Shown in pieces: positions 28,873 through 32,571 of a stretch of 64,000 nucleotides of DNA; position 1 is the first letter of the stretch; each line of letters starts with the position of its first letter. The notes beneath the pieces were generated by a model. That model was not told the origin of the DNA. It did no database searches and worked only from the letters and a program-made list of their open reading frames with translations. Source of the DNA: Streptomyces sioyaensis (GTDB taxonomy: Bacteria > Actinomycetota > Actinomycetes > Streptomycetales > Streptomycetaceae); assembly GCF_004122735.1 (NCBI RefSeq), contig NZ_SDIF01000008.1:1-64000 (forward strand). The letters are read 5' to 3'. The position numbers and the translations under genes were made by a program.

Positions 28873-29442
28873 TCAGGTCGCCAGCTGGAGGTCCCAGCCA
28901 CCGGACCGGCTGGTGAAGGTGGTCACCGACAGCGGCTGCACATCGATCCGCCAGAACGCGTGCGGGGGCGCCTGGAGCACATAGACCAGGGCGGCGCGGA
29001 TGACGCCGGGTTCGGCGACCGCGAGCAGTCCGGCGGCGTCGTCGGTCGGCCGGGTGTCCAGCCAGCCGCCGACCCGGGAGATGAACGCCGGCAGCGACTC
29101 CCCGCCGTGCGGTGCGGTGCGCGGATCGGCCAGCCAGGCCTCCACCGCGCGCGGTTCGGCGGCGGTCACCTCGCCCAGCGTGCGGCCGCGCCAGCGCCCC
29201 ATGTCGCAGTCGCGCAGCGCCGGCTGGGCCAGCGGGCGCAGCCCGAGCGCCTCGCCGGTGTCCCGGCAGCGGGCGGACGGCGAGCAGTAGCGCAGTTCGG
29301 CGGCGGCGAGCCGGCACAGGGCGGGAGCGGCCCGCTCGACCTCGTACCAGCCGGCGGTGTCGAGCGGGCGGTCGTCGTCGAAGCGGGTTTCGAGCAGCGA
29401 GGAGTTGCGGGCGGCGGCGAGCAGCTTGAGTCGAACGCTCAT
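28873..29442 (-). CDS. Histidine-phosphatase-fold protein lacking catalytic histidines
   Basis: A 189-aa protein of the phosphoglycerate mutase/CobC fold. The usual RHG motif reads ARN (R12, N13), and the second catalytic His motif reads AVAEPGVIRA instead of a serine-histidine-glycine context. Structural motifs around them survive (CSPSARCRDTGEALGL, HGGESLPAF). It is therefore probably an inactive phosphatase, a binding protein. ATG at 29442. No close partner. Confidence 0.8.
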   Translation of the reverse strand: MSVRLKLLAAARNSSLLETRFDDDRPLDTAGWYEVERAAPALCRLAAAELRYCSPSARCRDTGEALGLRPLAQPALRDCDMGRWRGRTLGEVTAAEPRAVEAWLADPRTAPHGGESLPAFISRVGGWLDTRPTDDAAGLLAVAEPGVIRAALVYVLQAPPHAFWRIDVQPLSVTTFTSRSGGWDLQLAT

Positions 29443-29485
29443 TCGCCGATGGTAAGAGGGGTGCCGCCCCGGTGGCACCAGTTGA

Positions 29486-29938
29486 TCACAATTCGACAGG
29501 ACCCGGGTCGATCAGCCCCAAGGTCATCCACTGCTCCGGCGACACCAGGGGGCGGAAGCCGATCTTCTCGTACACCCCGTGGGCGTCCTGGGTGGCGAGC
29601 GTCAGCCGGCTGAGGCCGCTGGGCGCCATGTGGTCGGCGACGGCCTCGACCAGGGCCGTGCCCAGCCCCTTTCCGCGGTCGTCCCGGCAGATGTAGACGT
29701 CGCAGAGCCAGGCGAAGGTGGCGTGATCGGTGACCACCCGGGCATAGCCGGCCTGACGCCCCGAACCGGACACGTACAGGCCGAAGTTGAGCGAGCCCGC
29801 CACGGCGCGGTCGTGCAGCTCCCGCGGGCGGCCCACGGCCCAGTAGGCGTCGGTGGACAGCCAGTGATGGACCAGGCCGGCGTCCAGGCGGGCCGGGTCG
29901 GTGGAGATCTCGTAGCCGTCGAGGGCAGGGGCGTTCAT
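29486..29938 (-). CDS. GNAT-family N-acetyltransferase
   Basis: A 150-aa acetyltransferase with the acetyl-CoA pyrophosphate loop RDDRGKGLGTALV (about 85-97) and the C-terminal VYEKIGFRPL motif. Start ATG at 29938. Substrate unknown. It sits 43 nt upstream of the phosphatase-fold gene, possibly cotranscribed. Confidence 0.9.
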   Translation of the reverse strand: MNAPALDGYEISTDPARLDAGLVHHWLSTDAYWAVGRPRELHDRAVAGSLNFGLYVSGSGRQAGYARVVTDHATFAWLCDVYICRDDRGKGLGTALVEAVADHMAPSGLSRLTLATQDAHGVYEKIGFRPLVSPEQWMTLGLIDPGPVEL

Positions 29939-30065: not shown

Positions 30066-31559
30066 TCAGCTCACCTCCACCCCCAGCTCCGCACACGCCG
30101 CACGGAGCCTGCGCACGCCCTCGGCGATCTCGCCGGTGCCGGACGCCGCCGCGAAGCTCAGCCGCAGATACGCGCCCGGCGGCTCGGCGGCGAAATACGG
30201 GCGGCCGGCCGCGACCGCGACCCCCGCCCGCAGCGCCGCACCGGTCAGCGCCGCCTCGTCGGTGCCGTCCGGCAGCCGCAGCCAGAGGTGGAAGCCGCCC
30301 GGCGGGACGTACACACCACCGGGCGCGGGGTCGTGACCCGGCGCCGGGCGGTGCCGGGTGAACGCGGGCAGCTGCCGGTGCAGGGCGGCGGTCAGGGCGT
30401 CGCGGCGGGCGGTCAACTCACCGGCGATCAGCCGCAGATGACGGGGCCAGGCGGGCGAGCCGACGAGTTCCAGGGCGGCTTCCTGGAGCGGCCGGGGCAC
30501 GAAGAAGCTGTCGACGACCTGGATGGCGCGCAACCGGTCGAGCACCGGGCCGCGGGCGGCCAGGGCCCCCACCCGCAGATTGGGCGAACTGGCCTTGGTG
30601 AGCGAGCGGACGTGGACGACGGTGCCGTCCTGGTCGTCCGCCATCAGGGTCGGCGGGAGCGCGGGGGCGTCGGCGTGTGCCAGCAGCCGCGCGAAGTCGT
30701 CCTCGATCACGAAGGCGCCGGCCGCACGGACCACCCGCAGCACCTCGCGGCGCCGCTCGGCGGCGAGCACCGCGCCGGTCGGGTTCTGGAACAGCGGCTG
30801 GCAGACGAAGAGCCGGGCCCCACTGGCGCGGAAGGCCTCGGCGAGCAGATCCGTACGGACCCCGTCCTCATCGATCGGTACGGGCACCGGCCGCAGCCCC
30901 GAGGCGCGGGCGACGGCCAGCACGCCCGGGTAGGTCGGGGACTCGACGAGCACCGGGGCGCCGGGCGCGGCGAGCGCGCGCAGCGCCGCGGTCAGCGCGC
31001 TCTGACCGCCCCCGGTGATCAGCACGTCATTGGCGCCGAGCGGGCCGCCGGCGCCGGCGATCTCCCGGGCGAACCAGGCCCGCAGCTCCGGCACCCCGCC
31101 GACCGGCGGGCGTCCCCAGGCGCCCGGCCGCCGGCCGGCCCGGGCGAGTGCGGCGGCCAGGGCGCGTTCAGGCTGCAGATCGGCGTGCAGGTAGCCGCCG
31201 TCGAACTCGATGACGCCGGGGGCCGGGGTGGCGAGGGTGGCCAGCACGCCGGTGGCGTCCACGCTGCGCGGCACCTGATCGCCGGCCGGCTCCGCGCTCA
31301 GCGCGATCTCCTGCCAGGAGGTGTCGATGGGACGCGGCGCCTCGCCCCGCGGTTCGGCCCGGAAGGCCCCGGCGCCGGGCCGGGTGACGACCAGGCCCTC
31401 CGCCGCCAGCTGGGCGAGCGCCCGGGACACGGTCACCGGGCTGACCCGGTGCCGTTCGACGAGGGCACGACTGGACGGCAGCTTCTCTCCTGGAGAGTAG
31501 CGGTCCAGCTCTTTACGGAGGATAGCGGCCAGCTCGGCACCACTGCTACGCTCTTGCAT
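30066..31559 (-). CDS. MocR-type regulator (GntR helix-turn-helix fused to aminotransferase)
   Basis: A 497-aa chimeric regulator: GntR winged helix at about 5-70 (LPSSRALVERHRVSPVTVSRALAQLAAEGLVVTRPGAG) and class-I aminotransferase domain from about 115, with PLP lysine K322 in VRSLTKASSPNLRVG. Such proteins sense PLP or amino compounds. ATG at 31559 shares two bases with the ATG of the divergent EamA gene; a -10-like TATCGT lies 8 nt upstream, implying leaderless mRNA. It most likely regulates that exporter. Confidence 0.9.
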   Translation of the reverse strand: MQERSSGAELAAILRKELDRYSPGEKLPSSRALVERHRVSPVTVSRALAQLAAEGLVVTRPGAGAFRAEPRGEAPRPIDTSWQEIALSAEPAGDQVPRSVDATGVLATLATPAPGVIEFDGGYLHADLQPERALAAALARAGRRPGAWGRPPVGGVPELRAWFAREIAGAGGPLGANDVLITGGGQSALTAALRALAAPGAPVLVESPTYPGVLAVARASGLRPVPVPIDEDGVRTDLLAEAFRASGARLFVCQPLFQNPTGAVLAAERRREVLRVVRAAGAFVIEDDFARLLAHADAPALPPTLMADDQDGTVVHVRSLTKASSPNLRVGALAARGPVLDRLRAIQVVDSFFVPRPLQEAALELVGSPAWPRHLRLIAGELTARRDALTAALHRQLPAFTRHRPAPGHDPAPGGVYVPPGGFHLWLRLPDGTDEAALTGAALRAGVAVAAGRPYFAAEPPGAYLRLSFAAASGTGEIAEGVRRLRAACAELGVEVS

Positions 31560-31599
31560 GAAGCACAACGATAGCGCTATCGCCACCGTAGGAATAGCG
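31522..31599. promoter_or_regulatory. Overlapping divergent promoters and ATAGCG repeats
   Basis: ATAGCG occurs at 31522, 31571 and 31594, and CGATAGCGCTATCG (31569-31582) is a perfect 14-bp palindrome. TACGCT lies 5 nt before the forward ATG and TATCGT 8 nt before the reverse ATG. Both start codons sit in CATG at 31557-31560. The operator sites therefore lie inside the two coding sequences. Confidence 0.6.
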
Positions 31600-32571
31600 G
31601 TCAGCACCCCTGCCGCCGGTGATCCGGACACCGCGACGACCGCCGCCGAGGAGCCGGGCACCCCGAAGGCCGCCGTCAAGGGGCCGGGCCTCCCGAAGCC
31701 CACCACCACCGCCCACGTCGGCCGCGGCCTGCTGCTCGCCGTCCTCGGCGTCGCCGCCTTCTCTCTCACCTTCCCTGCTACCGCCTGGGGACTGGAGGGC
31801 ATGGGCCCGTGGACGGTGGTGATGCTGCGCAGCGTGCTGGCCACCGTCCCGGCCGGCGCCGCACTCCTCGCGCTGCGGGTACGCCCGCCGGGGCGGCGCC
31901 ACTGGGCGGGCATCGCGGTGGTCGCGGGCGGCGTCGTGCTCGGCTTCCCGCTGCTGACCACCCTGGCCCTGGAGACGTCCACCACCTCGCACGCCGCCGT
32001 CGTGGTCGGTCTGCTGCCGCTGGCCACCGCCGCCTGCTCGGCCGTACGGACCGGCGCCCGGCCCTCCCGTACGTTCTGGATCGCCTCGCTGGTCGGCGCC
32101 GTCGTCGTCATCGGCTTTGCGGTGCAGCAGAGCGGCGGGATGCCGAACCGCAGCGATCTGCTGCTGTTCGTCGCGCTGCTGGTCTGCGCGGCCGGCTACA
32201 CCGAGGGCGGCCGGCTGGCCCGCCACATGCCGGGCTGGCAGGTGATCGGCTGGGCGCTGGTGCTGGCGCTGCCCGTGACCGTGGCGGGCGCGGCGCTGGC
32301 GCTGTCCGCCGAGCCGCTGGAGCTGACGGCGCGCTCGGTCGCCGGGGTGCTGTGGCTGGCGGTCGGCTCGCAGTTCCTCGGGATGGTCGCCTGGTACCGC
32401 GGGATGGCCGTGATCGGCATCGCCCGGGCGAGCCAGCTGCAGCTCGCCCAGCCGCTGCTGACCCTGCTGTGGTCGGTGCTGCTGCTCGGCGAGCGCCTGC
32501 CACCGGCCGCGCCCGCCACGGCGCTGGCCGTCCTGGCGTGCATCGCGGTCACCCAGCGGGCCCGGGGGTGA
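31558..32571 (+). CDS. EamA/DMT-family exporter
   Basis: A 337-aa ten-helix drug/metabolite transporter, two EamA repeats starting at GLLLAVLGVAAFSLTFPATAW (about 57) and again in the second half, ending QPLLTLLWSVLLLGERLPP. A charged 55-residue N-terminal extension precedes helix 1; no alternative in-frame start exists before the first helix is lost, so the ATG overlapping that of the MocR gene is real or the extension is non-coding. Probably exports an amino acid or metabolite sensed by MocR. Confidence 0.85.
   Translation: MKHNDSAIATVGIAVSTPAAGDPDTATTAAEEPGTPKAAVKGPGLPKPTTTAHVGRGLLLAVLGVAAFSLTFPATAWGLEGMGPWTVVMLRSVLATVPAGAALLALRVRPPGRRHWAGIAVVAGGVVLGFPLLTTLALETSTTSHAAVVVGLLPLATAACSAVRTGARPSRTFWIASLVGAVVVIGFAVQQSGGMPNRSDLLLFVALLVCAAGYTEGGRLARHMPGWQVIGWALVLALPVTVAGAALALSAEPLELTARSVAGVLWLAVGSQFLGMVAWYRGMAVIGIARASQLQLAQPLLTLLWSVLLLGERLPPAAPATALAVLACIAVTQRARG

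Follow-up and report, generated by a model that had tools for sequence, protein, structure and literature searches.

When two genes point away from each other and share part of their start codons, one has to ask whether the overlap is real and where their promoters and operators can be accommodated. The question arises in the 64,000-nucleotide stretch of Streptomyces sioyaensis DNA analysed here (contig NZ_SDIF01000008.1; hereafter, the window), in which a MocR-type regulator gene on the reverse strand (30066–31559, 497 aa; identified by Pfam) and an EamA/DMT-family exporter gene on the forward strand (31558–32571, 337 aa; identified by Pfam) both begin in one CATG at 31557–31560. An earlier note on this DNA had proposed that the two ATGs overlap by two bases, and direct reading of the sequence bears this out: the regulator ATG occupies 31559–31557 and the exporter ATG 31558–31560. 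Our main reading, to which we assign a probability of roughly 0.7, is that the locus is a MocR operator and promoter region that works in both directions and leaves no DNA between the genes, in which two leaderless promoters would share one operator and bound MocR would shut both.

The regulator joins a GntR winged helix-turn-helix (PF00392, residues 11–66, 1.9e-12) to a fold-type-I aminotransferase-like domain (Aminotran_1_2, PF00155, residues 129–485, 5.3e-25), the domain combination of the MocR subfamily. Within its segment SLTKASSPNLRVG, the K aligns with the SFSK lysine of the solved aminotransferases 2egy and 8tn2, and we take this residue to be the PLP-binding lysine. The NCBIfam models of named MocR proteins, equivalogs and exceptions alike, all stayed below their curated scores: PdxR (204.6 against a cut-off of 320), YczR (202.5 against 487.4), EhuR (164.1 against 480), rhizopine MocR (116.5 against 650), and GabR (63.6 against 600); the best named orthologue is that of S. 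kronopolitis, with 94% identity. The exporter matches EamA (PF00892) in two stretches at 5.3e-24, scoring 85.5 bits against a gathering score of 28.2, and carries about 50 additional N-terminal residues ahead of the first transmembrane segment (TM1). Beyond the 3' end of the regulator, and in the same direction, come the genes of a GNAT acetyltransferase (29486–29938, reverse strand), matched by tblastn in 52 of 80 loci, and of a histidine phosphatase (28873–29478, reverse strand).

To judge conservation, we used a close set made up of the best 80 of 326 relatives found by the MocR search, 79 of which are titled Streptomyces and one Microtetraspora glauca. The tblastn matches to MocR in these 80 start at query residue 1. 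The set was aligned gap-free on the MocR start, and relative positions are counted from the A of the exporter ATG (31558 = 0). The earlier note had suggested conservation of the CATG as a check, and the tetranucleotide is kept in 81 of 81 sequences (the window and the best 80 of 326 relatives). It is also present in 30 of 30 orthologues from same-genus genomes that lack the wider sequence pattern described below, in 18 of 18 distant orthologues, and in 12 of 14 plasmid relatives.

One might ask how often such a CATG would turn up by chance. As a background, we took 0.8 Mb of another Streptomyces genome, where a crude gene caller that misses some genes reported 472 genes and 90 divergent neighbour pairs. 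There were three in-frame CATG positions, within two of the pairs, and by this rough estimate none of the divergent pairs in the 0.8 Mb had a CATG with TAnnnT on both sides. When the 12 loci of MocR paralogues in the same genome (the locus itself included) were searched for a CATG with long frames on both strands, leaving out the TAnnnT criterion, chance frames were obtained, for example at L095 and L101. Since the arrangement is retained in nearly all relatives examined, it is probably a working genetic switch and not a product of chance.

The TAnnnT elements themselves are the first evidence of how the two genes may be transcribed. TACGCT (31547–31552, forward strand), the proposed −10 box of the EamA promoter, lies within MocR codons, at a spacing of 5 nt from the A of the exporter ATG; TATCGT (31568–31573, reverse strand), the proposed −10 box of the MocR promoter, lies 8 nt before the A of the MocR ATG and within EamA codons. 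The earlier note had pointed to one such element per gene at leaderless distance, and each is found at fixed spacing in all 81 sequences of the window and the best 80 of 326 relatives. In these, the left hexamer (−11 to −6) reads TACGCT in 79 and TACTCT in two, and the right hexamer (+15 to +10 on the minus strand) takes seven forms, every one of them a TAnnnT. Over the 128 aligned loci of three sets, TAnnnT occurs at spacing 5 from the exporter A in 128 and at spacing 8 from the MocR A in 126, against at most 2 (EamA side) and 13 (MocR side) at any other spacing from 0 to 39; pattern-negative, distant, and plasmid rows were placed for this test by requiring CATG and TA at −11. The CATG and left-hexamer counts for the pattern-negative and distant sets rest on separate readings of each locus and not on this placement.

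It had also been claimed that neither gene has room for a ribosome binding site, and Shine–Dalgarno-like 4-mers 4–16 nt upstream are indeed absent on both sides, with 0 of 128 for either gene. From the fixed TAnnnT spacing together with the missing Shine–Dalgarno sequences, we infer that both mRNAs have leaderless 5' ends. On the MocR side, 8 nt is a long distance if transcription is to start precisely at the A, and a leader of 1–2 nt would fit this spacing as well. In S. coelicolor, a TANNNT −10 box is found at 80.4% of transcription start sites, and leaderless starts make up 21.0% of the primary ones, according to the portions of PMC4895711 drawn on here.

The candidate operator consists of three half-sites that overlap the promoters. 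Half-site C, GTAGCA on the reverse strand (TGCTAC on the forward strand; 31544–31549), overlaps the EamA −10 box. The palindromic half-site pair B, CGATAGCGCTATCG (31569–31582; core TAGCGCTA at 31572–31579), overlaps the MocR −10 box; the earlier note had placed this palindrome inside coding sequence, where it is the sole match in the window with up to three mismatches. Half-site A, ATAGCG (31594–31599, forward strand), falls in the −35 region of the MocR promoter, and 23 bp separate it from the B arm of matching orientation. C is separated from the reverse arm of B by 31 bp, or about three turns, and C, B, and A are locked in mutual spacing. Spacings of 31 and 23 bp would be in keeping with a repeat-bound MocR.

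ATAGCG occurs in the locus at 31522, 31571, 31575 (reverse strand), and 31594, and three copies had been noted earlier as a possible part of the switch. Of that idea, site A (TAGC in 78 of 81) and the B core (80 of 80) stand as conserved elements, and the copy at 31522–31527 falls away as an operator site, being private to the window (1 of 81, the window and the best 80 of 326 relatives). The true third half-site is C, which that note did not include. The number of ATAGCG copies is of no use as evidence, with 11 in the window against 9.1 expected; because the count is not enriched, the motif has meaning by position and conservation alone.

Half-site C reads TGCTAC in 111 of 140 aligned rows and TGCTAT in 12, with other variants in 17. 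The B core, written as TA[AG]C[GA][CT]TA at +14, is present in 80 of 80 close loci (the best 80 of 326), 29 of 30 pattern-negative loci, 16 of 18 distant loci, and 11 of 11 placed plasmid rows. Site A stands in the forward direction at +37 in nearly all close loci, including 79 of the best 80 of 326 relatives. The pattern TAGCGCTAN{0,30}TAGCG (TAGCGCTA-N0..30-TAGCG) has a single match in the whole genome, at this locus, so the operator looks dedicated to this gene pair. A fourth half-site D, TAGCG (31498–31502, forward strand; −60; MocR codons 20–21), is possible and uncertain: it is found in 81 of 81 sequences of the Streptomyces set, whose best 80 of 326 relatives were fetched using the peptide DRYSPGEK, which spans the codons of D, and in 1 of 29 distant and plasmid rows. 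Its conservation may be that of the protein only. In the same region (MocR codons 20–24), serine codon 22 is a rare TCT or TCA in 62 of 79 loci, which might reflect a further half-site or a codon effect near the 5' end.

Beyond the close set, we searched 295 same-genus genomes for CGCTA-N14..18-TAGCGCTA-N11..13-ATG and found it in 179, with 6 for the reversed-pattern control; among the matches listed, the length is 43 bp and the end is CATG. The first 40 by handle of the 116 pattern-negative genomes were then searched by protein. A MocR orthologue was present in 30 of these 40, and all 30 best loci had the CATG and both hexamers, the difference from the pattern lying mainly at site A. Two of the 40 genomes had a second match, 60–62% identical. 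Across the class, the pattern was found in 38 of 296 genomes. Outside the genus, the reversed control cannot serve as a measure of rarity, as it gave about 66 against these 38, and 32 against the single match of TAGCGCTAN{0,30}TAGCG in the genome itself; because the control outnumbers the pattern, class loci had to be read individually. Fifteen non-genus loci read in this way all had both genes starting from the CATG, a result that is partly circular since they were chosen by a pattern containing the MocR ATG, and they are kept outside the 128. Three class hits in one family (G548, G457, and G572; f25) are 42 bp long and without CATG, and look like chance. Viral contigs gave two pattern matches and no relative of the exporter.

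A further sample comes from 58 genomes hand-picked by family code from the class sample (one, G434, already known from the pattern). These yielded 18 distant orthologues in 17 genomes, from nine other actinobacterial families, at 43–57% identity. The left hexamer is TAnnnT in 18 of 18 and the right hexamer in 16 of 18. The 15 distant loci that have an EamA gene include 14 with site A at +37 or +42; among all 18, ten have the site reversed at +42, and from either position the distance to the B arm of matching orientation is 23 bp. The two exceptions at the right hexamer, L178 and L189, read TTTCCT there because B and A have both become AAGCG (from TAGCG). This coordinated change of both half-sites suggests a regulator of altered specificity and lends indirect support to MocR binding these sites and controlling the neighbour. 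The two loci are a natural experiment that could show which residues of MocR recognise the half-site.

A conserved stretch that is translated on both strands could also be explained by selection on the two N termini, with no operator at all. In favour of protein constraint, conservation is seen at the amino-acid level in EamA S6-A7 (81 of 81) and around ERSS in MocR. The codons behind them tell otherwise. In the window and the best 80 of 326 relatives, EamA codon 7 is GCT in 81 of 81, against 1.0% of alanine codons elsewhere in the same genes, and EamA codon 13 is ATA in 80 of 81, against 1.3% of isoleucine codons elsewhere. On the other strand, MocR codon 4 is CGT in 79 of 81, against 5.5% of arginine codons elsewhere, and MocR codon 6 is AGT in 55 of 81, against 3.3% of serine codons elsewhere. 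The rare codons at MocR positions 4 and 6 speak for half-site C, and the one at EamA position 13 speaks for half-site A. EamA residue 5 varies (D in 44, S in 27, and N in 10), and its third base is T in all 81. Fixed rare codons, and a changing residue under a constant third base, are the opposite of what protein-level selection leaves behind. Between B and A (+22 to +33), the commonest base drops to 44–79% in the same 81 sequences, which shows that they have diverged enough for the invariant columns to represent constraint. With the joint alteration of B and A in L178 and L189, and the switch of site A in orientation between lineages within the same 23-bp register, an explanation by protein constraint alone is hardly credible. 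Judged from codon usage, the constraint acts on the DNA.

The plasmid relatives extend the comparison and also qualify it. We read 14 of 20 matches and placed 11; L234 (in which MocR is annotated in two pieces), L241, and L243 were left unplaced. The CATG is in frame with MocR in 12 of the 14, the others being L241, which lacks it, and L243, which has CGTG instead. In the latter, from Deinococcus aetherius, the exporter could use the GTG; the regulator ATG is lost, and RefSeq takes a downstream TTG. Among the 11 annotated plasmid records, RefSeq itself gives the two-base overlap in three (Arthrobacter sp. U41, A. agilis, and Microbacterium sp.), and the remaining records have at least one RefSeq start off the CATG (for example that of MocR in L238 and L239, and that of the MFS transporter in L242). 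Long frames on both strands from the CATG, together with GTTATC-type half-sites, are seen in Deinococcus sp. QL22, with a DMT transporter, and in Rhizobium and Mesorhizobium, with MFS transporters. In L239 and L242, which are Mesorhizobium and Rhizobium plasmids, the MFS transporter opposite MocR adjoins a gene for a SidA/IucD/PvdA-type monooxygenase.

In the 11 placed rows, TAnnnT is kept in nine on the left and six on the right, and site A in seven; three of the four that lack A (L238, L239, and L242) have a transporter frame from the CATG. As the hexamers and site A are less well kept, the case for leaderless promoters is weaker in the plasmid relatives. A wider proposal would be that MocR regulators of one whole clade, which reaches from Actinomycetes as far as Deinococcus and Rhizobiales, use a zero-intergenic switch with crossed leaderless promoters that start on one CATG, half-sites that form part of the −10 boxes, and peptide motifs dictated by the operator. 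Because the plasmid rows, with their six TAnnnT of 11 on the right, are the ones that include Deinococcus and Rhizobiales, we hold this wider proposal tentatively, at a little under even odds.

The position of the exporter start deserves separate attention. If starts were misplaced, the overlap would be an artefact: the exporter would start downstream with its own ribosome binding site, and the region would be an ordinary untranslated operator. Wherever the contig is long enough (79 of 79 loci), the frame from the CATG continues into the exporter; the other two of the 81 end after 18 and 29 codons. The earlier note had named a conserved downstream start codon as grounds for giving up its reading, and no such codon emerges for the exporter. 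We counted start codons in 78 exporter frames (the two short contigs and L086, in which no TM1 motif was found, were left out), and 49 of these have no ATG, GTG, or TTG from codon 2 to TM1. In the remaining 29, which could be taken in favour of a later start, TM1 is preceded by some in-frame start codon, most commonly a GTG at codon 15 (15 loci), which overlaps site A; an in-frame start codon upstream of the CATG is present in 17 of 78.

Further points that would suit a later start come from outside the close set. RefSeq starts the Tsukamurella exporter 60 nt downstream, and the CATG is retained at five loci without a long exporter frame after it. Three of these (L175–L177) are distant loci without a divergent EamA match, where CATG, C, and B are kept, A is absent, and the frame from the CATG is 27–48 aa long. 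The other two are the BenE pairs of Prescottella and Rhodococcus (L232 and L235), in which that frame is 28–29 aa, so BenE starts elsewhere. Since the CATG persists at five loci with a divergent frame of 27–48 aa, conservation of the C that precedes the MocR ATG serves more than the exporter start. Against a later start stand the 49 frames that offer none, the uninterrupted frame in 79 of 79 loci, and the three RefSeq records with both starts on the CATG. In addition, GC3 in EamA is 0.58 over codons 2–16 and 0.90–0.93 over codons 17–45, a step that is expected if codons 2–16 contain the operator and the frame is translated throughout. We regard misplaced starts as a very improbable explanation.

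In the bidirectional switch that we favour, transcription of each gene would use a leaderless promoter with its −10 box among the first codons of the gene opposite, and both RNAs would begin at, or a few bases from, the shared CATG. MocR would bind half-sites A, B, and C (roughly G-A/G-TAGC-G/A). As C covers the EamA −10 box and B that of MocR, a MocR oligomer occupying all three half-sites should keep RNA polymerase from both promoters, so that the regulator would repress itself as well as the exporter. A ligand acting through the PLP of the aminotransferase-like domain, probably an exported amino compound or B6 vitamer, would lift the block. The transcripts would run at once through each other's promoter, and the promoters would compete; polymerase has a footprint of about 75 bp, so the two would be mutually exclusive. 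In the portions of PMC5320631 drawn on here, PdxQ regulons contain DMT transporters together with RimI acetyltransferases. With the GNAT gene beside MocR, this makes a B6-related amine or amino acid a reasonable guess for the substrate and ligand.

A pure repressor would depart from the family norm, since MocR regulators are often described, in the same parts of PMC5320631, as activating the divergent gene. The same leaderless layout could accordingly be worked by a classical MocR that represses itself and activates the exporter with its effector, for example by moving between half-site pairs. GabR and PdxR, as described there, activate their divergent genes; the EamA −35 columns show, by eye, no strong consensus, as at activated promoters; and site D is at −60 throughout the Streptomyces set. 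An activator would be poorly positioned here, with A and B downstream of the proposed EamA start and C over its −10 box, and D is nearly absent from the distant and plasmid rows. We consider activation of the exporter unlikely, and double repression the better account.

How does the locus compare with known systems? There are precedents for MocR divergons, for DMT targets, and for leaderless genes in actinobacteria. With a regulator divergent from its putative target and conserved repeated half-sites, the locus has the layout of a MocR divergon. The divergons described in the parts of Suvorova and Rodionov 2016 (PMC5320631) used here, GabR, PdxR, and the regulogs among them, likewise have a regulator divergent from its target and half-sites repeated two to four times, as direct and inverted copies with nearly constant spacing, and DMT transporters are already among the targets in PdxQ regulons. 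In PdxR, however, the sites occupy a common intergenic region, whereas here they lie in both coding regions and over both −10 boxes. The main text of that paper holds nothing on leaderless genes, start codons, overlap, or Streptomyces; its site search spanned −350 to +50, which would cover these sites, and the motif may be in its supplementary tables.

The YczR-YczE divergons, as presented in the sections of Milano et al. 2016 (PMC4944035) consulted, also place a MocR opposite a membrane-protein gene in actinobacteria, Streptomyces among them, and correspond to the RegPrecise regulog PdxR3-Streptomycetaceae. They differ in having another membrane protein, a very variable promoter-region length, and the motif GGCCA, and those sections mention no gene overlap. 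The proposed promoters resemble those of Streptomyces leaderless mRNAs (Jeong et al. 2016, PMC4895711; PMC4681348, 2014), with a TANNNT −10 box, a preference for AUG, and many regulators among the genes; the text of these two papers, as far as it is used here, includes no pair of leaderless genes back to back. Our literature search found the overlapped arrangement in no paper, and the motif alone may be on record in RegPrecise or in supplements.

If the proposed switch is correct, the starts of transcription, repression, and translation of two opposed genes would all fall within about 60 bp and would be deeply conserved, a compression that is possible only if both mRNAs manage without leaders. 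The locus would then provide a clean test of polymerase competition at crossed promoters, and the conserved motif at the exporter N terminus would be the imprint of an operator. Searches for binding sites that are confined to intergenic DNA would miss such switches.
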